Assembly: GCA_031260285.1 (NCBI GenBank)
Contig: JAIRKD010000002.1
Coordinates: 1-64,000 of the forward strand
Direction of reading: 5' to 3'
Length of the DNA: 64,000 nucleotides
Source of the DNA: Gemmatimonadota bacterium
GTDB lineage: Bacteria > Gemmatimonadota > Gemmatimonadetes > Longimicrobiales > Longimicrobiaceae
The position numbers and the translations under genes are program-made. Shown one piece after another: positions 18,916-35,351 of the stretch; position 1 is the first letter of the stretch; each line of letters opens with the position of its first letter. Below the pieces are notes generated by a model. The model ran no database searches, was not told the DNA's origin, and saw only the letters and a program-made list of their open reading frames with translations.

Positions 18916-20982
18916 TCACCTGTGCGGGTGGCCTTTCGCCTGCCAGTCGGCCGGCACATCGGGAGCATGCGGCTTCCCCCGGAGGAGCCGAAGGCCATTT
19001 GCAGCGACCAGCAGTGTGCTTCCCTCATGGGCGACCACCGCCAGCGTCAGCCGGATTCCCACCACCAGTGACAGAATCACCAGGAAGAACATCCACCCCA
19101 CACTGAACCAGACCTTCTGGCGAACCACACGCCGAGCACGCCGCCCGAGGTGGATGACGTAATCGATCTTCTCGACATCGTCACTCATAAGCACCACATC
19201 AGCGGTCTCGATCGCGACGTCGGTCCCGATCGCGCCCATGGCGATGCCCAGGGTGGCGGCGGCCATGGCGGGAGCGTCGTTGACCCCATCTCCTACCATG
19301 GCAACCCCGCGGGAACTCTTCGTCAGCTCCCGGATCACCTGAACCTTCTCGTCGGGGAGAAGGCCGGCGCGTACCTCATCCACCGCCAGACCCGCGGTGA
19401 CCGCCGCAACAGCCTGGGGATGATCGCCTGAAAGAATCGTGATCCAGCGGACGCCTTCATACTTCAGATGGCGGATGCTCGCCACCGCATTCGGCTTCAG
19501 TGTATCTCCCAGAGCCAAAGCGCCGATCACCTGGCCGCCATGACCCACGTAGACAACCGAATACCCCGCGGATGCCTGCTCCGCGATCCACCCGCGCGCA
19601 ATCGGCGGGATCTCCGTTCCCATCCGGTCAGCCATCTTCTCGTTGCCGACCCATGCCGTATGACCGTCCACTGTTGCAGAGACACCTTCCCCCGCAACCG
19701 CCACAAAGTCTGTGGCGCGCGTGCCCGCGATCCCTCTTTCTTTTGCGGCTTCGAGGATCGCGCGGGCCGTATGATGTTCCGAGGTATTCTCCACCGCCGC
19801 GGCAACCGCGATAACTTCGACCTCGTCCTCGGCAGAGGTAGGGGATGGTGCATGTGAGCGGGTTGCGTCTTCCCCCGCAGGAGAGGGGCTTCCCCCGGCT
19901 TCTCCGATCTGCTGCCGGGTGAGGATATTCACCAGCCGCGGCCGACCCCGGGTAAGCGTGCCCGTCTTGTCGAAGGCAACCGTATCAATCGTGCCCGCCA
20001 GATCAAGGTGTGCCCCGCCCTTGAAGAGGATTCCGTTACGGGCCCCGTTGGCGATGCCGGAGAGAATCGCGGAGGGCGTGGAGATCACCAGCGCACACGG
20101 ACTGGCAACCACAAGCAGCGTCATCGCCTGATAGAACGCCTCACCCCAGGGGCGCCCGAAAAACAGCGGTGTGACTACGGCGACAAGGACGGTGACGCCG
20201 AGTACCAGAAGTGTGTACGGGTGCGCAAACCGGTCGACAAAGTGCTGGGCGGGCGCGCGTTTTTCGCGGGCTTCCTCAACAAGCCGGATGATCTTGGCGA
20301 GCATCGTCTCACCCGCATCCCGGGTGACTGTAACGATCAGTGCGCCGCCCTGATTGATGGTGCCGGCGTAGACCTCGTCGCCGACGTCCTTGGTGACGGG
20401 GACTGATTCACCCGTGATCGCCGCCTGATCCACCCCACTGCGCCCGAAGTGTACTTCGCCGTCCGCCGCGATCCGCTCTCCCGGACGGACAAGGATCATC
20501 TGGCCGGGCTTGAGCTCCTCAACGGGTACCCTGCCCAGCTCCTCACCTTCAGCCCCGACAACCATCGCCTCCTGGGGGCGGAGGTCCAGGAGCTTCGAGA
20601 GCGCCTGGCGGGTGCGCCCCATCGCGAAGTGCTCCAGGGTGTTGGAAAGGCTGAAGAGGAAGATGAGGATCGCTCCCTCAAGCGGACTCCCGACAACCGC
20701 CGCGCCAACCGCGGCGGTGCCCATCAGGAAGTCGATCGAGAGTTTGTGTTCATCGCGAAGCGTCTCCCAGCTGTCTCGCGCGATCCGTCCGCCGCCGATC
20801 AGGTAGGCGATCCCGAGAGGCAGCCACCGCCAGGGAGATGGCTCCGCAGGGAGCAGTTCGAGAGCTGCGCCGGCGATAAGCGCGATCAGGACAACCGTCG
20901 TTACCCGCAGGTAGTACCGCGTTTCGGCGCTTTCGGGGTCTTCCTGTTCCCGGGAGAAGAGGAGCTGGAAAAAGCTGTTCAT
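18916..20982 (-). CDS. Heavy-metal translocating P-type ATPase (P1B, SPC-motif type)
   Basis: 'VVASPCALVISTPSAILSG', 'DKTGTLTRGRP', 'AMVGDGVNDAPAMAAATLGIAMG', C-terminal 'AHEGSTLLVAANGLRLLRG'. Confidence 0.93.
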   Translation of the reverse strand: MNSFFQLLFSREQEDPESAETRYYLRVTTVVLIALIAGAALELLPAEPSPWRWLPLGIAYLIGGGRIARDSWETLRDEHKLSIDFLMGTAAVGAAVVGSPLEGAILIFLFSLSNTLEHFAMGRTRQALSKLLDLRPQEAMVVGAEGEELGRVPVEELKPGQMILVRPGERIAADGEVHFGRSGVDQAAITGESVPVTKDVGDEVYAGTINQGGALIVTVTRDAGETMLAKIIRLVEEAREKRAPAQHFVDRFAHPYTLLVLGVTVLVAVVTPLFFGRPWGEAFYQAMTLLVVASPCALVISTPSAILSGIANGARNGILFKGGAHLDLAGTIDTVAFDKTGTLTRGRPRLVNILTRQQIGEAGGSPSPAGEDATRSHAPSPTSAEDEVEVIAVAAAVENTSEHHTARAILEAAKERGIAGTRATDFVAVAGEGVSATVDGHTAWVGNEKMADRMGTEIPPIARGWIAEQASAGYSVVYVGHGGQVIGALALGDTLKPNAVASIRHLKYEGVRWITILSGDHPQAVAAVTAGLAVDEVRAGLLPDEKVQVIRELTKSSRGVAMVGDGVNDAPAMAAATLGIAMGAIGTDVAIETADVVLMSDDVEKIDYVIHLGRRARRVVRQKVWFSVGWMFFLVILSLVVGIRLTLAVVAHEGSTLLVAANGLRLLRGKPHAPDVPADWQAKGHPHR

Positions 20983-21319
20983 GGTCTGGGCGCTGCTCCT
21001 CGTTCCCGAGAGAATGGTGGCAGGATCAGGCTTCGTCTGCCATGATATTTCCGGATCCGGCCCGCGAATAGCGGATCCGTCAAATAATATCGTCCTCCCA
21101 CCGGATAACCAACATAACGCAGGCGGTTGTTCCCCCGACAACCCGGGTCGGGCGACGCAGAGCTGATGACGCTTTCCATTGTGGCGGAGGAAGTTTGAGG
21201 AACAACGGCGGGCCGCTATATTTTCGGGTTGTCAAGTCTGATTTCCGGAAGGTGTAAACCCTTACTCGCGGGGCCTTTTGAACGTATCCAGCCAGGACGT
21301 GGTCCGGTCCCGGGACAGT

Positions 21320-27245: not shown

Positions 27246-30200
27246 TCACTCCATTCCGGCGGCAGCTCTGTCCGAAGAGATCATCCTTATCCGCGGCCTC
27301 GCCGGGGAGCCGGGGGACCGGAAGCGGCCCATCCACTGTGCGGGAGTGGTGTTCCCGGGTGTTCCGGGTCCGTCGTTACGGCTCAGCCGGGAGCGGATCT
27401 CTTCCGGAACGTCCGCCTCCGCAATGTCGCTGAACCCCGCGCTCCGGTAGAGCTGGCGTTCGTTGGCGATCCGCTGGAGCGCCCGCGTGCCCCGATCTTC
27501 ACCGCCGGCAACGCGAACGATCAGCTGCCGGACGCCCAGGCTGGCAAGAGGATCCGCAGATCCGCGCATCGGCGCTTCACCCAGCTGGCGCAGAAACGAC
27601 TCGCCGATTCCCGCTCCCCAGAGGCCCGCCGGCACATAGAAGTCGCGCCAGTTCCAGAAGAGACATCCCCCGGCTGAGCTTCCCGTTGTTTCCACGCCCG
27701 CCGTCTCTGCCCCGGCCGTTTCCGCCCTTGAGACGAGGATCAGTGCTGACTGCAGCCAGAAGCTGCTTTCCCGGTAGCGCAGCCTCATCCGGAAGGGAAG
27801 GAAAAGCTGATCAGATGCGGGTTCCTCCCGACCTTCCGCCGTCCAGCACTCCCGGGCGAAGCCGTTTGCCGCGGTTGTCGGAGCATCGATCCCGCCGTCC
27901 ACCGAATCCGGAGGTCCGTCTCCGTGAACGTTGTAGACACGCTCCACAAATCGCGTAAATGGCCGTGGGTACATCGTTTTCAGCACCGGCCACCACATGC
28001 GGAAGAGAGGCGCTGACGCCCATCGTCCGAAATAGTTGATTGTACCAACATACAGCGGGTGGTTGTGGAGCTCCTCAAGGTTCTCGCGGATATAGAGGTC
28101 CTCCATCAGCGCCAGCGCGCGGCGGAGCACATGCAGAGAGGCCGCCATCCCGTCCTGCTCCCGCTGTGCCGGTGGATCTTCAGATACCCGGTCCGCATCC
28201 TGCCTCCGGATCCCCCGGTACACAACTGCGGGCCGTTCCACGAAACCCGGTTGAATGGCGTCGGGGTGCGCAGCTTCGTTGAGCTTTTCCACCTCCACAC
28301 GATCATTCTCCGGGAGATCCTCTTCTGCAAAAACCCTGAGCCCCCGCCCATCCTCCAGGATATCGATTTCTTTCAGGACTTCGCGAAGCAGTGTTCTGCA
28401 CCCCGGCTCACGCAGCATTTCATCAAGCACCGCGGCCTGTTCGGCAAAGTAGGAAAGCCGGTCGCCGAAGCCGGCGGGAACCGGTTGCCCCTCACGCCGC
28501 GCCCGGGCAAAAAGCTGGGTGACATAGCTGGTGCTCCCGGGATCAAGATCCGGAGCGAGCCGGTCAAACGCACTCTCCACCGCATGCTCCCCCAGCCCGC
28601 GATATGACTCCCACTGTGCCTCGTCGTAGAACTGATCTGTGGTTGATTCGTGGGGGAATACGGGGTTGTGAGAGCGGTACTGTGCGATATCAGCGGGCTC
28701 CTGTCCCGTAAGCGCCGGCTTGAAGAGCAGCAGCGTCCCGGTATCCCCTTCCGGGTAGTGAATGTCACCCGCAACCATTGTCTGCCGTGCATGGCCATGT
28801 TCATCCGGATGCAGCGGCGAGAGGTCGATGCGGATCTCGACGCCGAAGTCCGACCGGGCTCTGCGCACGAGATTTCCGAGGTCGGCGAAGGTCACATCGG
28901 GGTCCATCCCGCAGTCTGAGGCGATGATAAAACGGCAGTGCCGGCGGATGAGTTCGTACAGCCCCATATTCTCAAAATGTCCACCATCAGAAAGGTGAAC
29001 ATGCCTGCCGTCCGAGTGGGCGATTCCGAACATCTCCTGAAGGAACGGGAGGCCGCGCAGCAGAGAGTGGTGCAGCCATGCTCTCCATGGACCTTCCGTT
29101 TCCCGGTCAACCCAGAGGCCGAGCCGGAGGTTGAGAGCGGCCATCAGGAAGGTGACAGCGGGGCCGAGTTCCCTTGATCTGTCCCCCATCAGGGTGTTGA
29201 ACGCCGCTCCGGAAGCCGTGATCGCCGCGCCGAGAGACGGCGGTGACTCATTCGCGATCCAGTCACGCCGGAAGTTGCCCACCGAGAACCCGGCGGACGA
29301 AACCACTGCGCTCTCCGCGCCCCGCCGCAGGTTGCCCAGTTCATTCTGTCCGAGATCGTTTGCCGCGCAGCAGATGAGATGGCAGGGGCCGGTGCTCAGG
29401 TCAGAGAGATCCGGATCGTCGTCTTTCTGTTCCTCCGTTCTTCCTCTTGCCTCGGGGTTCCGGTTCGAGGCGCCGAGATAGGCGCGCGCCAGCCGGGCGC
29501 GATAGAAGGAGTGCAGGCCGACCACACTGGCGTCCATGACCACTAGCGCGGACAGAACGATCAGGACGGCTGCGATCGCGATCACCAGAGGGGCGGGACG
29601 GCTCAGCCATTCGAGGCGGTCGGAGGCCACCAGCAGCGCCGTCACCCCGATGACCATTCCGGTCACCGCGCCGTACGCGAGAAGTTGTGGCAGAAAGGGA
29701 CCCAAACGCGTCATCAGGCTGGCGGGCGGAGGGGTGTTCAGCTGTTCGCTGATCTGTTTCCGCAGCCGGGTGAAGAGGCCTGAAAGCAGGGCGACGGTGC
29801 CGGTGAGGCCGGCAGCCACCTGGAGCTCCCGCTCGGCCGCCGCAAACTGATAGAGTCGCGCGCCACCAGTCCAGAGCAGCGTGATGACCAGCCAGCTCAC
29901 CAGCGCCAGCAGGAGGCGGGAGTGGACCCGGTCGAAAGGAGCGCGCCTGAACCTTCCGTTCCAGGAACCGGCATTTCTGGAGGTGAAAAGTCGACCCAGG
30001 GCAAAGAGTATTGCCACTGTTCCCCAGACAACCACTGGTGCGAGCAGGAGGGTGGTGGGTACCGAACCATCCGGCAGCACCGGAAGCAGACTGCCGTCCT
30101 GGTAGAGCACCGGCCCGGTTGTTCCCGGCAGGAGCACCGCGCGGAATCCCCACCCCAGACTGGTCAGCAGCAATCCACAGAGCAGGGCAAACAGGTAACC

Positions 30201-31034
30201 GAGGGGGCTGTCCTCCTCCCCGCGTTTCCGCCAGACTCTTTCTGTGATCCAGAGGAAACTGCCGGTCAGCCCCAGAAATGTGGCGGCGGAGAGTACCGGC
30301 CCCCCGGAAAAGAGCCCGTACACCGCCAGACACCAGCTGAGCATCATCAGCGCGATCACGGAAAGCGCCGTAAGCAGAGAAGGGACAATCGGGCTGAGCA
30401 GGGAGACCATCACCCGGCCGGTATCCCAGGAGAAGATCCCCAGCCGGGGGGAGAGGTAGTTGCTGAACTCCCGCAGATGCCTCAGCTCCGCCGCTTCCGC
30501 GCGCCCGTCGTTTCCAGTGAGCTCGGGGAATACCCTGTGCTCCCCGGCCGTCTCCGTCCCTTCGGTCTCTCCGCTCGCTCCACTGTCTGGCAGCGATGAT
30601 GCGTAAGCGGCCCCATTCGGTCTGGGTGCCTCCCCGGTCTTTCCGCCCGCTCCACTCTCCGGCTGCTTCCGGGAGCGCCAGGCCGACCAGAAGCCACCGA
30701 TATACCCGCCTCCCGAAACAGTGGAGAGGTAGTCGAGGCGGGAGAGCAGACCGAAGCGGTGGAGACCCTGGAGCAGGCCCAGGTTGAAGGTCGCGCTCCG
30801 GATCCCGCCCCCTGAGAGGGAAAGCCCGAAGAGGTCCCGGGAGGGTTCCGTCACCCGCGCGGGGTTCACGCCGGTCGGGGCTTCCCCCGTTTCGCGCCCG
30901 ATCAGCTCCCGGAGAGCCCGGATTGCGCGGTCGTCAGCTGTCTCCGGGGCTGTTCCCACCGGGGCAGGGCTGCCGGCGGGCAAGCGCGCCGCGTCGGAGG
31001 GAAGTATATTACTCACAGGTATTTGGGTCGCCAT
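27246..31034 (-). CDS. Large patatin-like phospholipase with central multi-TM region
   Basis: 'GLSLSGGGIRSATFNLGLLQGLHRFGLLSRLDYLSTVSGGGYIGGFWSAW', hydrophobic helices mid-protein, 'LSDGGHFENMGLYELIRR'. Confidence 0.88.
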   Translation of the reverse strand: MATQIPVSNILPSDAARLPAGSPAPVGTAPETADDRAIRALRELIGRETGEAPTGVNPARVTEPSRDLFGLSLSGGGIRSATFNLGLLQGLHRFGLLSRLDYLSTVSGGGYIGGFWSAWRSRKQPESGAGGKTGEAPRPNGAAYASSLPDSGASGETEGTETAGEHRVFPELTGNDGRAEAAELRHLREFSNYLSPRLGIFSWDTGRVMVSLLSPIVPSLLTALSVIALMMLSWCLAVYGLFSGGPVLSAATFLGLTGSFLWITERVWRKRGEEDSPLGYLFALLCGLLLTSLGWGFRAVLLPGTTGPVLYQDGSLLPVLPDGSVPTTLLLAPVVVWGTVAILFALGRLFTSRNAGSWNGRFRRAPFDRVHSRLLLALVSWLVITLLWTGGARLYQFAAAERELQVAAGLTGTVALLSGLFTRLRKQISEQLNTPPPASLMTRLGPFLPQLLAYGAVTGMVIGVTALLVASDRLEWLSRPAPLVIAIAAVLIVLSALVVMDASVVGLHSFYRARLARAYLGASNRNPEARGRTEEQKDDDPDLSDLSTGPCHLICCAANDLGQNELGNLRRGAESAVVSSAGFSVGNFRRDWIANESPPSLGAAITASGAAFNTLMGDRSRELGPAVTFLMAALNLRLGLWVDRETEGPWRAWLHHSLLRGLPFLQEMFGIAHSDGRHVHLSDGGHFENMGLYELIRRHCRFIIASDCGMDPDVTFADLGNLVRRARSDFGVEIRIDLSPLHPDEHGHARQTMVAGDIHYPEGDTGTLLLFKPALTGQEPADIAQYRSHNPVFPHESTTDQFYDEAQWESYRGLGEHAVESAFDRLAPDLDPGSTSYVTQLFARARREGQPVPAGFGDRLSYFAEQAAVLDEMLREPGCRTLLREVLKEIDILEDGRGLRVFAEEDLPENDRVEVEKLNEAAHPDAIQPGFVERPAVVYRGIRRQDADRVSEDPPAQREQDGMAASLHVLRRALALMEDLYIRENLEELHNHPLYVGTINYFGRWASAPLFRMWWPVLKTMYPRPFTRFVERVYNVHGDGPPDSVDGGIDAPTTAANGFARECWTAEGREEPASDQLFLPFRMRLRYRESSFWLQSALILVSRAETAGAETAGVETTGSSAGGCLFWNWRDFYVPAGLWGAGIGESFLRQLGEAPMRGSADPLASLGVRQLIVRVAGGEDRGTRALQRIANERQLYRSAGFSDIAEADVPEEIRSRLSRNDGPGTPGNTTPAQWMGRFRSPGSPARPRIRMISSDRAAAGME

Positions 31035-31532: not shown

Positions 31533-31931
31533 ATGAACAGAAAACGTGTTGCGTGGGCTCTGCTTCTCCTGGTTCCGCTGCTGACAGCGGTGGCCGCTCC
31601 GGAGCTGAGCGCTGAGCGGAACAAGGTGGTTCATATCACGATCGAGAAGTCCATGCCCTCGGACGGCTCCAGGGTTTCGGGGGTGTCAGAGGTCCGGCTC
31701 TTCTTCACTGGCGCGCCGCTCCTCCGCGGCGCTTCAGTGAGAATTGTTACTGCCAACCGTACGCTTGTGCGCAGCAGCCCGCCAGCGGCGGATGGAAGAG
31801 ATCCCCGACAGCTGTTCACCACGCTTGAGGCGGCGCTTGCGCCGGGTGTGTACGTGGTACAGTGGCGCTGCATCGCGGATGATGGTCACGTGATGAGAGG
31901 TGACTTCCGGTTTGAGGTCACAGGCGACTAG
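31533..31931 (+). CDS. CopC-domain periplasmic copper-resistance protein
   Basis: Signal peptide; 'SMPSDGSRVSGVSEVRLFFTGAPLLRGASVRIV', 'PGVYVVQWRCIADDGHVMRGDFRFEV'. Confidence 0.85.
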   Translation: MNRKRVAWALLLLVPLLTAVAAPELSAERNKVVHITIEKSMPSDGSRVSGVSEVRLFFTGAPLLRGASVRIVTANRTLVRSSPPAADGRDPRQLFTTLEAALAPGVYVVQWRCIADDGHVMRGDFRFEVTGD

Positions 31932-31994
31932 GGACCGGAACCGGCCTGAAGGCCCGGGTTCCTTTTCAACAACTTTATCGATGAGGGTGTCATC

Positions 31995-32822
31995 GTGAGA
32001 ATTCAGAGCGCTTCGACCATTGGTGGGCATGATGTGCGGACAGCTGGCTCCGGCGCATATGGCATCAGCTGGCGCTTCGCGGCGCTCGGAACTGTGCTGG
32101 CCCTTTCCGCCGGATGCGGGAATGGTGGTGCAAGCGCGGGCACCTCTGCTCTCGCGGAGGGGCGGGTGCTGTACGAAGCGAACTGTATGAGCTGTCACGG
32201 CCCCACCGCGCAGGGTGATGGTCCGGATGCCGGCTCGCTTCCCGTGCGCCCCGCGACACTTACGGAACACCTCGGCCACCATACGCAGGCGCAGTTCATC
32301 CAGCTTGTCCGCGGGGGAGTACCACCCGCAATGCCACCGGCCGACCTCAGCGAAGATCAGGTCCGTCTTGTTGTTGACTACCTCTGGACACTGGTGCCTG
32401 AGGAGCAGGTTGAGGCGCTGCGCGCGATGCAGCACCAGACGGAAACAGGTGGAGATGCGGGAATGGCGGGGATGGACCATTCAGCCCATACGGCCGGTGA
32501 CTCTTCTTCCATGCCCGGCATGTCAGAAGCGGACCACGCGCAGATGATGCAGGGGATGTCCGCGACTGAGCAGGCGCAGCACAACCAGATGATGCAGTCA
32601 CTCTCCGCAGACGACCATATGCGGATGATGCAGATGATGATGGCCATGCCGGAGGCCGACCGGATGGAGCATATGCGGATGATGATGGCGCTGCCGGAAG
32701 CGGAGCGTATGCAGCATATGCAGCAGATGATCCAGAAGGCGCCCGCCGGGTCGGATATGTCGGGAATGGACCACTCGCAGCACATGATGCCAGCGACCCC
32801 GGAAGCCGCTGCCGGGCACTGA
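31995..32822 (+). CDS. Cytochrome c lipoprotein with Met/His-rich C-terminal (putative Cu-binding) domain
   Basis: 'ANCMSCHGPTAQGDGPDAGSLPVRPATLTEH' (CxxCH), 'GVPPAMPPADLSEDQVRLVVDYLWTL', then 'DHMRMMQMMMAMPEADRMEHMRMMMALPEAERMQHMQQM...MDHSQHMM'. Confidence 0.88.
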   Translation: MRIQSASTIGGHDVRTAGSGAYGISWRFAALGTVLALSAGCGNGGASAGTSALAEGRVLYEANCMSCHGPTAQGDGPDAGSLPVRPATLTEHLGHHTQAQFIQLVRGGVPPAMPPADLSEDQVRLVVDYLWTLVPEEQVEALRAMQHQTETGGDAGMAGMDHSAHTAGDSSSMPGMSEADHAQMMQGMSATEQAQHNQMMQSLSADDHMRMMQMMMAMPEADRMEHMRMMMALPEAERMQHMQQMIQKAPAGSDMSGMDHSQHMMPATPEAAAGH

Positions 32823-32922
32823 TCGGCGGAGGTGTTGTCGGCGCATCAGTGAGAGCGTGGGCGGAATGAATCCCGGCAGAGGTAAGCCCGGCAGCTGAGC
32901 CGGGTACCCTGAGTCCGGTAAC

Positions 32923-34020
32923 ATGAACAGTGTGGAGAGGCCGCGGATGATCAGCCGCAATTGCATATACAACTGGAGCGCGACGACCGTCCTTCTTGGA
33001 GCGTCGCTGCTTGCGCTTCCCCAGAGCGCGCTTGCGCAGGCCTCGGGAAGCCTTGCCAACTATGAGGCCGTTTTTCAGCGTAACTATCCTGAGGTGCACG
33101 CGCTGGTCCTGCGGTTGAACCATGCGCAGGAGACGCTTTTCGGAGAGCTGGTCGCTGAGGGGATGGCCGTACGGTCGAGCCCGGATCTGCTGCCCAGCCC
33201 GACCTTCGAGTTTGATATGCTTGAACGTCTGGGTATTCTGGCCGGTGAGGGCGGGGAGCTGGACGTGGATGAGGGCGGAAGCGAAAGCGGCTACGCCACG
33301 CTTGGCAGCCGTGCGGCCGGAATCATCGAGTGGGGCAATCAGTTCCGTCTGGCGGTGATGGGGATTATCTCCGATCCGACGCTGACGGAGTTCCAGGCAC
33401 GACGGGCGAAGCTGGCGGAAGCGGTTGCTCTCTACCAGGCGCGGCCGGAAGCAGCCCTGCCCACGGTTCCCAAGAACATGGATATCCTGTACTCGCACGC
33501 GCAGGCTCAGGCCTTCCGGACGGGATACACCGACCTCGACGGGCTGATCTGGGCGGGGCACTGGTACAAGCTGGCGATTGCCAAGCCGTTTGTGGATCTT
33601 TCCGGGGCGGAGCGGGTGGCGGGTCTGGATACCATTCAGGCGCGTTACTTCGCGAAGTTGTCCTATGGTGATCCGCCCAACTTCTTCCCGAGTGAACTTC
33701 CGCTCGCTCCGGCGATCGCTCCTGAACTCTCGTTCCTGAACCCGCAGACAGTCGCGATTCTGGATAACCTTACGATGTTTGAAGAGGTGATCGCGGATAT
33801 CCTGGTTTCGCCAACCGTGCCGGATGAGCGGGCGGGGGTTGAGACAGCTGTGGACTTCTTCCTTGACCCGAAGCGTGGAGTCACAACCTCCGTCGAGTTC
33901 GGCGCGATGGCGCTCCGTCACGGGATCTTCTTCCAGGGTGGTTTTCCGCTGATCTATATGGCGGAAAGTGAACGTAACGCGGGCGGGCATCACGGCGGAC
34001 ATGTCGGGGGTGGGATGTGA
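32923..34020 (+). CDS. Secreted protein of unknown function with His/Gly C-terminal tail
   Basis: Signal peptide 'TTVLLGASLLALPQSALAQA'; tail 'ESERNAGGHHGGHVGGGM'; sits in the CopC/cyt c gene string. Confidence 0.65.
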   Translation: MNSVERPRMISRNCIYNWSATTVLLGASLLALPQSALAQASGSLANYEAVFQRNYPEVHALVLRLNHAQETLFGELVAEGMAVRSSPDLLPSPTFEFDMLERLGILAGEGGELDVDEGGSESGYATLGSRAAGIIEWGNQFRLAVMGIISDPTLTEFQARRAKLAEAVALYQARPEAALPTVPKNMDILYSHAQAQAFRTGYTDLDGLIWAGHWYKLAIAKPFVDLSGAERVAGLDTIQARYFAKLSYGDPPNFFPSELPLAPAIAPELSFLNPQTVAILDNLTMFEEVIADILVSPTVPDERAGVETAVDFFLDPKRGVTTSVEFGAMALRHGIFFQGGFPLIYMAESERNAGGHHGGHVGGGM

Positions 34021-35102
34021 CCATTCGTTGTCTGTCGCGGCCGTGGGCCGCGGTTCTCGGTGCTGTTGCTGTTACACTTGTGGGGTGCGGGGGTGGGGAC
34101 GCTCCGGTTTCCGTCGGACCTCCGTCTCCGCCGGCGCCCACGCTTCAACGGTTGACGCTGGATACGCTCTTCCAGATCGGCGCGGAGAGCGGCGAGAGCT
34201 GGCAGCGTTTCGGGGGGATCTGGGATGTGGATGTCTCCTCATCCGGTCAGATCGCGGTACTCGACATCGAAACCGGACAGGTCCATGTCTATAACAGTTC
34301 GGGTGACCACCTGGGTTCGGTGACGGAGTCGGGGTTGGAGCCGGGTGCTCTGGAAGGCCCGACGGGCCTCGCCTGGCGGGATGCGGACAACCTTCTTGTC
34401 TGGGACCCCGGCTCTTCGTGGATCTCGCGTTTCACCGTGGGGAAGGGTGTTTCCTTTGCGGATCAGTCGCGCGCCTTTGCCTTCGGAGAAACGGGTTTCT
34501 GCGCGGAGGGAGATCGGGTCTACCTGAGTTACTGGCAGGATGATCTGGTGGTCCATCAGCTCGCGAAGGAAGGCCCGGTCCGTTCTTTCGGCACGATGCC
34601 GGAGATCCCGGGAATGGCCGAGCTGGGCCCCGAACTTCAGGAGATCGGGATCGAGGAACTGACCCCATCGGGGCTGCTCTGCACTCCCTCGGGGGTTCTG
34701 GACGTCGCGTTCTACGGATCGCGGGTTCGCATGCATGACGCCAGCGGCTCGCTCCTCTGGGAGACGGAGCTGGCCGACTTCAATCCACTCTCCGTTTATT
34801 CCCCGGACGGAATGGGACTCGGCAGGCAGTTTGATGCCGCGGAGGGTACGCAACTCCTCCGGTCGCTGGTTGCCTGGGGTGACGAATACGGGCTCGTCCA
34901 GTATGAGGTGCGTACCCGCGAGTACCCGGAGGAAGGGGAGGTTCCGGTGATCGAATCCCGCCTCGTCCGTCTCTCGGATGGCGCGGAGGTTGATCGCACG
35001 CGGGATCTTCCGGTAGTGCTCTCTTCCTGGGGGCGTCGTCTTTTCCTGCCGGCGACGGAGCCTTTCCCTCGGGTGATCGTGGCGGAGGTTGCAGGGAATT
35101 AA
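34017..35102 (+). CDS. Beta-propeller (6-bladed/NHL-like) lipoprotein
   Basis: Lipobox 'VTLVGCGGG'; 'FGGIWDVDVSSSGQIAVLDIETGQVHVYNSSGDHLGSV...GPTGLAWRDADNLLVWDPGSSWISRF'. GTG start overlaps the upstream stop by 4 bp. Confidence 0.75.
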   Translation: MTIRCLSRPWAAVLGAVAVTLVGCGGGDAPVSVGPPSPPAPTLQRLTLDTLFQIGAESGESWQRFGGIWDVDVSSSGQIAVLDIETGQVHVYNSSGDHLGSVTESGLEPGALEGPTGLAWRDADNLLVWDPGSSWISRFTVGKGVSFADQSRAFAFGETGFCAEGDRVYLSYWQDDLVVHQLAKEGPVRSFGTMPEIPGMAELGPELQEIGIEELTPSGLLCTPSGVLDVAFYGSRVRMHDASGSLLWETELADFNPLSVYSPDGMGLGRQFDAAEGTQLLRSLVAWGDEYGLVQYEVRTREYPEEGEVPVIESRLVRLSDGAEVDRTRDLPVVLSSWGRRLFLPATEPFPRVIVAEVAGN

Positions 35103-35168
35103 CAGTGGTTTCCGGCGGGAAGCGGGTGAGGTGCAGGGCAGCTGCATAAAAGCTCCGGGGTAACAGGA

Positions 35169-35216
35169 AAGTGGCCGATGTCTCAGCTCTCCAGTGTGAG
35201 CGGACATCGGCCACTT
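35169..35216. terminator. Strong hairpin terminator for the CopC-cyt c operon
   Basis: AAGTGGCCGATGTC / GACATCGGCCACTT, 14-bp perfect stem. Confidence 0.7.
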
Positions 35217-35270
35217 CAGTTTCACCCGGCTACAAGGGCAGGTCGATCCGTCATGGATGGGGCGGAACGG

Positions 35271-35351
35271 AAGGGCTCACACGAAAGGCATGAAGGACAC
35301 GAAAACTGCTTTGTTTTTCTTCGTGTCCTTCATGCCATTCGTGTGAGCCTT
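35271..35351. repeat. Long inverted repeat with 9-bp periodic arms
   Basis: AAGGGCTCACACGAAAGGCATGAAGGACACGAAAAC ... TTCGTGTCCTTCATGCCATTCGTGTGAGCCTT; about 30-bp stem with one mismatch and one bulge; 9-mers ACGAAAGGC/ATGAAGGAC/ACGAAAACT. Confidence 0.9.

Follow-up and report, generated by a model that had tools for sequence, protein, structure and literature searches.

The closest described systems to the locus analyzed here are those built on CopC and CopD and the locus of the copper-dependent thiocyanate dehydrogenase (TcDH). In Bacillus subtilis, CopC and CopD domains support copper import (PMC13344008). The tcdh locus is flanked by copCD (PMC5744179, PMC6504805), and the electron acceptor of the enzyme is CytC552, a cytochrome with disordered, histidine-rich ends whose His83 has been proposed to take part in the electron path (PMC9456337, from which all CytC552 residue numbers are taken). 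The window, by which we mean the whole stretch of 64,000 nucleotides that was analyzed (contig JAIRKD010000002.1 of a Gemmatimonadota bacterium, order Longimicrobiales, family Longimicrobiaceae), holds four consecutive genes for CopC, a cytochrome c, a protein outside annotated families (here P3), and a beta-propeller. We assign a probability of about 60% to the reading that these four genes constitute a periplasmic or envelope module for copper redox and delivery.

RESULTS

Four exported proteins encoded on one strand

All four open reading frames called in the first-pass annotation of this DNA are present on one strand (Table 1), and the 4-bp overlap (GTGA) that it placed between the last two genes is seen in the reading frames of P3 and the propeller. 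It had also credited every product with an export signal, and each has one predicted from its sequence: Sec signals on CopC and P3 and lipoboxes on the cytochrome (LSAGC) and the propeller (LVGC). An SD-like GGAGG precedes the CopC start codon (ATG at 31533), intergenic gaps of 63 bp and 100 bp separate CopC from the cytochrome and the cytochrome from P3, and a promoter scan returned a single weak match, within P3. The strong hairpin proposed at the 3' end is indeed stable (-34.3 kcal/mol versus -16.1 kcal/mol when shuffled; z score of -6.1), with arms of 25 nt at 35158-35182 and 35203-35227, but because it has no T-run it is not a canonical terminator, nor is it listed by a terminator scan.

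Table 1. Features of the copper-linked locus, in coordinates of the window
Feature	Positions	Strand	Evidence or description
CopC gene	31533-31931	+	Pfam CopC, E 1.6e-15; CopC/PcoC matches in PDB
Cytochrome c lipoprotein gene	31995-32822	+	Pfam Cytochrome_CBB3, E 7e-11; CytC552-like
Cytochrome-P3 gap, 100 bp	32823-32922	+	Short CCCGGC/GCCGGG stem
P3, exported all-helical protein	32923-34020	+	No Pfam, NCBIfam or PDB match; helical model
NHL-type beta-propeller lipoprotein gene	34017-35102	+	NHL profile match; structure model
Hairpin 3' of propeller gene	35158-35227		Near-palindromic, without T-run

Two further features lie on the flanks. Between the propeller gene and a convergent GSDH gene there is a near-perfect 30-nt inverted repeat, GGCTCACACGAAAGGCATGAAGGACACGAA, at 35274-35349; the idea that it is a genome-wide repeat was rejected, as it is almost unique in the genome. 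Upstream of the module, on the minus strand (27246-31034), is a gene whose 1262-aa product has a patatin-like motif at its N terminus, scoring just under the Pfam cut-off.

CopC, cytochrome, and propeller

The window CopC matches the full length of PF04234 (positions 1-92 of 92; 58.3 bits against a cut-off of 23.3) and keeps the DxH of the copper site (ADDGH), which is aligned in its CopC and PcoC matches in the PDB. The histidine aligned with His1 of CopC is kept in the window protein and its relatives, several residues inside the predicted mature start, and a cysteine common to most window-type relatives precedes the copper site (WRCIADDGH).

The cytochrome has a single heme (CMSCH, with the axial Met in PPAMPP), and its open reading frame encodes 31 Met and 16 His, with a C-terminal tail rich in both. 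CytC552, its nearest solved relative, has features that are all present in the window protein, namely, CxxCH, a short loop to the axial Met, EHxxHH, and a His-rich extension; His83 of CytC552 aligns with an invariant histidine of the window cytochrome family, and the HH pair that follows is invariant there as well. In one relative (G147), the cytochrome carries a C-terminal CusF-like domain, and in another (G145), where no CopC or cytochrome was found, a CusF protein (Pfam E value of 1.7e-12) follows the propeller. The first pass had already named the Met/His-rich cytochrome as a plausible metal ligand. Plasmid records contained no instance of the window cytochrome.

The propeller matches NHL domains by profile (E value of 2.9e-25), the Pfam NHL repeat itself being sub-threshold. 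The best structural matches of its model (pLDDT of 83.7) are the NHL domains of TRIM2 and Brat (Foldseek E value of 7e-9) and BamB. Two Cys and two His are invariant, and orthologues beside P3 are 50 to 63% identical; weakly similar NHL-type propellers are abundant in genomes of the order, and hence the propeller need not be copper-specific. It is the sole propeller at the window locus, where no TcDH homologue was found.

P3, so far seen only in Gemmatimonadota, has a conserved His/Met tail

P3 belongs to no family above the cut-off in Pfam or NCBIfam and has no sequence match in the PDB. Its model is helical (pLDDT of 87.8, pTM of 0.85) and has no Foldseek neighbor in the PDB at an E value of ≤0.001, but Foldseek is weaker on helical folds, so we do not claim a new fold. 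Assignment to gluconate 2-dehydrogenase subunit 3 (PF13618) was considered and rejected, at 17.4 bits against a cut-off of 23.4 and with a match in 1 of 51 family members. By profile search, the family is present in 89 of 298 Gemmatimonadota genomes, and it occurs in 44 of 154 genomes of the order. When contigs from 84,980 species were scanned with an alignment-based pattern, 75 loci were confirmed, every one carrying a Gemmatimonadota lineage in its title; a scan of genome contigs for close relatives, with P3 alone as the query, found nothing, and no paper on the family turned up in the literature covered on Gemmatimonadota with CopC.

Six histidines are invariant in P3 clades B and C (H69, H139, H142, H213, H284, and H287 in window numbering), and their positions fall on four long helices in the window P3 model. 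Taken alone, the excess of His in invariant columns is modest (P = 0.03); more telling is the retention of all six in clade C, which is distant. Judged from these alignments, a metal site is likely in the two sister clades. In the clade of the window protein, four of the six are mostly replaced, and because the window P3 itself keeps only H213, its own metal site beyond the tail is uncertain. In the tail, HxxH is found in 17/17 window-type and nearest sequences and GM in 16/17, so the window's HHGGHVGGGM, which had been singled out as a plausible metal ligand, represents a shortened version of the conserved HxxH...GM motif at this end.

One possible, if on balance doubtful, interpretation is that P3 represents a new family, specific to the phylum, of helical metal proteins of the periplasm, the metal probably being copper. 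In the main clades, the six His of the four helices and conserved Asp/Glu would then form a metal site in a fold without a solved relative; the window-type clade would have lost most of this site while becoming linked to the CopC-CopD-cytochrome module, keeping the His/Met tail. The P3 family is probably part of how Gemmatimonadota handle copper.

Across its clades, the P3 family goes along with copper genes. Other P3 genes have other neighbors. In all 57 loci with enough upstream sequence, clade-B P3 immediately follows an outer-membrane barrel gene (PF13557 match), and in the stretches fetched for clade B, a P1B ATPase, CsoR, or CopC/CopD is present at 23 of 63 loci (the one such ATPase sampled is Cu-type). 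These barrel-P3 loci (L118-L179, L089, and L030), often near CsoR, a P1B ATPase, or CopC-CopD, constitute a second copper-linked locus of Gemmatimonadota, one that is unnamed and much more common. At L074, L081, L083, and L085 (and L072), a window-type P3, mostly without a propeller, adjoins cl7, a cytochrome/weakly Cu-monooxygenase-like protein (E value of 0.066), and cl8, an unannotated exported protein. A P3 paralogue in G108 (L087, 5969-10518) adjoins a cl24, cl35 cluster that appears by eye to comprise a GMC oxidoreductase and a gluconate-dehydrogenase-type small subunit.

The four genes are linked across genera in two divergent halves

Neighborhoods were fetched for genomes of the order, and marker proteins were mapped by tblastn. 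Close relatives of the propeller (≥50% identity) occur in 12 genomes besides that of the window, among the 154 of the order, and these 12 span three genera. P3 and the propeller are adjacent and co-directional in 13/13 genomes that have both (window included), CopC is beside P3 in 12/13 (11/12 without the window), and CopD and the same cytochrome are each found at the locus in 9/13, with several of the missing cases at contig ends. This cytochrome, recognized by EHxxHH and the axial Met, joins a CopC-CopD unit in 7 other propeller genomes and stands beside CopC in an eighth. Given about two CopC genes per genome, one is expected within 2 kb at a chance of about 0.25% per genome, and the linkage in 12/13 is therefore not due to chance (about 1e-30 before shared ancestry, the genomes being related and not independent). 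The first-pass annotation had named conservation of the gene neighborhood as its check, and absence of synteny as grounds for abandoning it; the neighborhood proves to be conserved. Copper, too, is well supported as the theme of the locus, since P3 and the propeller repeatedly have CusF domains, CopD, and this cytochrome for partners.

The proposal of a single operon held in part: the four genes are linked, but their co-transcription as a set is not conserved. In the usual layout of relatives (G047, G130, G132, G133, G138, G147, and G108), P3-propeller is divergent from CopC-CopD-cytochrome; in the window, both halves run in the same direction without CopD, which is also missing from the G140 locus. 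The 100-bp gap between the cytochrome and P3 is likely the joint of two units that are divergent in relatives, and the four window genes may form two transcription units.

Within the window locus, no CopA multicopper oxidase, CopB, or CopD was found, nor any CusA in the operon. The earlier view of a unit without CopA, CopD, or CusA partners is correct for CopD locally but not beyond, as CopD accompanies the locus in most relatives and a second CopC with an overlapping CopD is present on contig C105 of the window genome. The missing CopD is a local loss, not a sign of a CopD-free system.

P-type ATPases and descent of the block

The P-type ATPase at 18919-21141, about 10 kb away and previously noted as a nonadjacent P1B ATPase, was rejected as a partner: it scores as Zn/Cd-type, has an SPC motif, falls below the Cu cut-off, and is not a copper pump. 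The window genome has one Cu-type P1B ATPase, on contig C12.

In the P3 tree, the window protein nests, on a long branch, within sequences from a different family of the order (100/99 support), and the second P3 of the same genome (contig C105) falls in the portion of clade B that belongs to its own family. A mis-binned contig was considered and rejected, because polA on the window contig is 72% identical to that of a same-genus genome and has its best match within the same family. The contig is thus native, and the copper block appears acquired or differentially lost; from these phylogenetic placements, the probable history is either acquisition of the module from the other family or its loss from the other members of the window's own family, a conclusion that we hold loosely.

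DISCUSSION

In a copper-redox and delivery module of this composition, CopC would capture Cu(II), the CytC552-like cytochrome would exchange an electron with the copper, and the resulting Cu(I) would be held by the Met/His-rich tail of the cytochrome or, in relatives, by a CusF domain. P3 and the propeller, perhaps in complex, would act as an accessory pair that binds copper, passes it on, or tethers the carriers to the membrane. The recipient of the copper would then be CopD, encoded next to the module in most relatives and elsewhere in the window genome, or a periplasmic copper enzyme. What has been observed is the gene content, the conserved linkage, the fusion to CusF, and the sequence motifs; copper binding by the tails, electron exchange with copper, and a P3-propeller complex are inferred from them. 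For the window-type module, we weakly favor copper supply over detoxification; detoxification would also fit the presence of CusF, CsoR, and Cu-ATPases near other P3 genes.

The main rival to this copper-redox reading is detoxification, which we regard as rather unlikely. The cytochrome would oxidize periplasmic Cu(I) with the respiratory chain as the sink, replacing CopA/CueO, and CopC, the tail, and P3 would sequester Cu(II)/Cu(I), all of which accords with the absence of CopA and CusA from the window operon, the CusF partners in relatives, the P1B ATPases (one sampled, Cu-type) and CsoR near sister-clade P3, and a Met/His-rich tail suited to buffering. Met-rich Cu(I) sites, however, tend toward high potentials, which favors Cu(II) reduction over Cu(I) oxidation by a cytochrome, and no CsoR or Cu-ATPase was found in window-type loci. 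CopD, moreover, is the usual partner, and in B. subtilis its domain supports the import of copper and the loading of cuproenzymes (PMC13344008).

The locus could instead serve a copper enzyme, with the propeller or P3 as a copper oxidoreductase, the cytochrome as its acceptor, and CopC as the copper supplier, but we consider this improbable. TcDH is itself a beta-propeller, and in some genomes P3 is found with the cl7/cl8 pair (cytochrome plus monooxygenase-like) instead. The parts further resemble those of the TcDH locus in the association of copCD with a CytC552-like cytochrome (PMC5744179, PMC9456337). The window propeller, however, is NHL-type and most resembles the TRIM2, Brat, and BamB structures, not TcDH; its two invariant His are too few for the multi-copper site of TcDH; and the Cu-monooxygenase match of cl7 is weak. 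That the four are independent exported proteins, neighbors by chance or co-transfer, is highly improbable: the nearest relatives of the module are in another family and polA is native, so the block may have moved as DNA, and the 63- and 100-bp gaps allow separate promoters, but the same partners recur in varied orders and orientations across three genera and the window genus, and in 12/13 genomes against an expected 0.25% per genome.

Read as a copper-redox and delivery module, the locus supplies a function-linked context for a large unannotated family (P3, in 89/298 genomes) of the widespread, poorly studied Gemmatimonadota. It also brings out a repeated association of CopC/CopD with a cytochrome that has an exposed heme and a Met/His tail; through this association, the way in which periplasmic copper changes its redox state ahead of uptake or enzyme loading would become directly testable.

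Several known systems share parts with the module. As in CopC/CopD systems (PcoC/CopC, YcnJ, and YobA-YebZ), the window CopC is a bona fide Pfam CopC and, in relatives, pairs with an overlapping or adjacent CopD; unlike in those systems, the window locus lacks CopD and adds the cytochrome, P3, and propeller, and its CopC carries a Cys close to the site but is not predicted to have an N-terminal His brace. It also differs from the CopABCD/PcoABCD resistance operon in that CopA, CopB, and CopD do not neighbor CopC. A CusF domain (Pfam CusF_Ec) occurs fused to the cytochrome in G147 and standalone after the propeller in G145, but the window has no CusF, and no CusABC was seen in P3-propeller operons. 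With the CytC552/TcDH locus of Thioalkalivibrio, the module has in common the closest solved cytochrome, EHxxHH with His83, the His-rich extension, and a copper-linked setting with copCD; the window cytochrome departs from CytC552 in a tail that is also Met-rich and in a relative fused to CusF, and the window propeller is NHL-type. That propeller shares its fold and repeat profile with NHL/six-bladed propeller lipoproteins but belongs to a P3-tied orthologous group (50 to 63% identity) with invariant Cys and His pairs. Compared with type 3 copper proteins, with their four-helix, six-His dinuclear site, P3 clades B and C have six His, and the window-type model is without a fold match in the PDB. 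All parts but P3 are of known kinds, and their combination makes a new variation on CopC/CopD copper handling.
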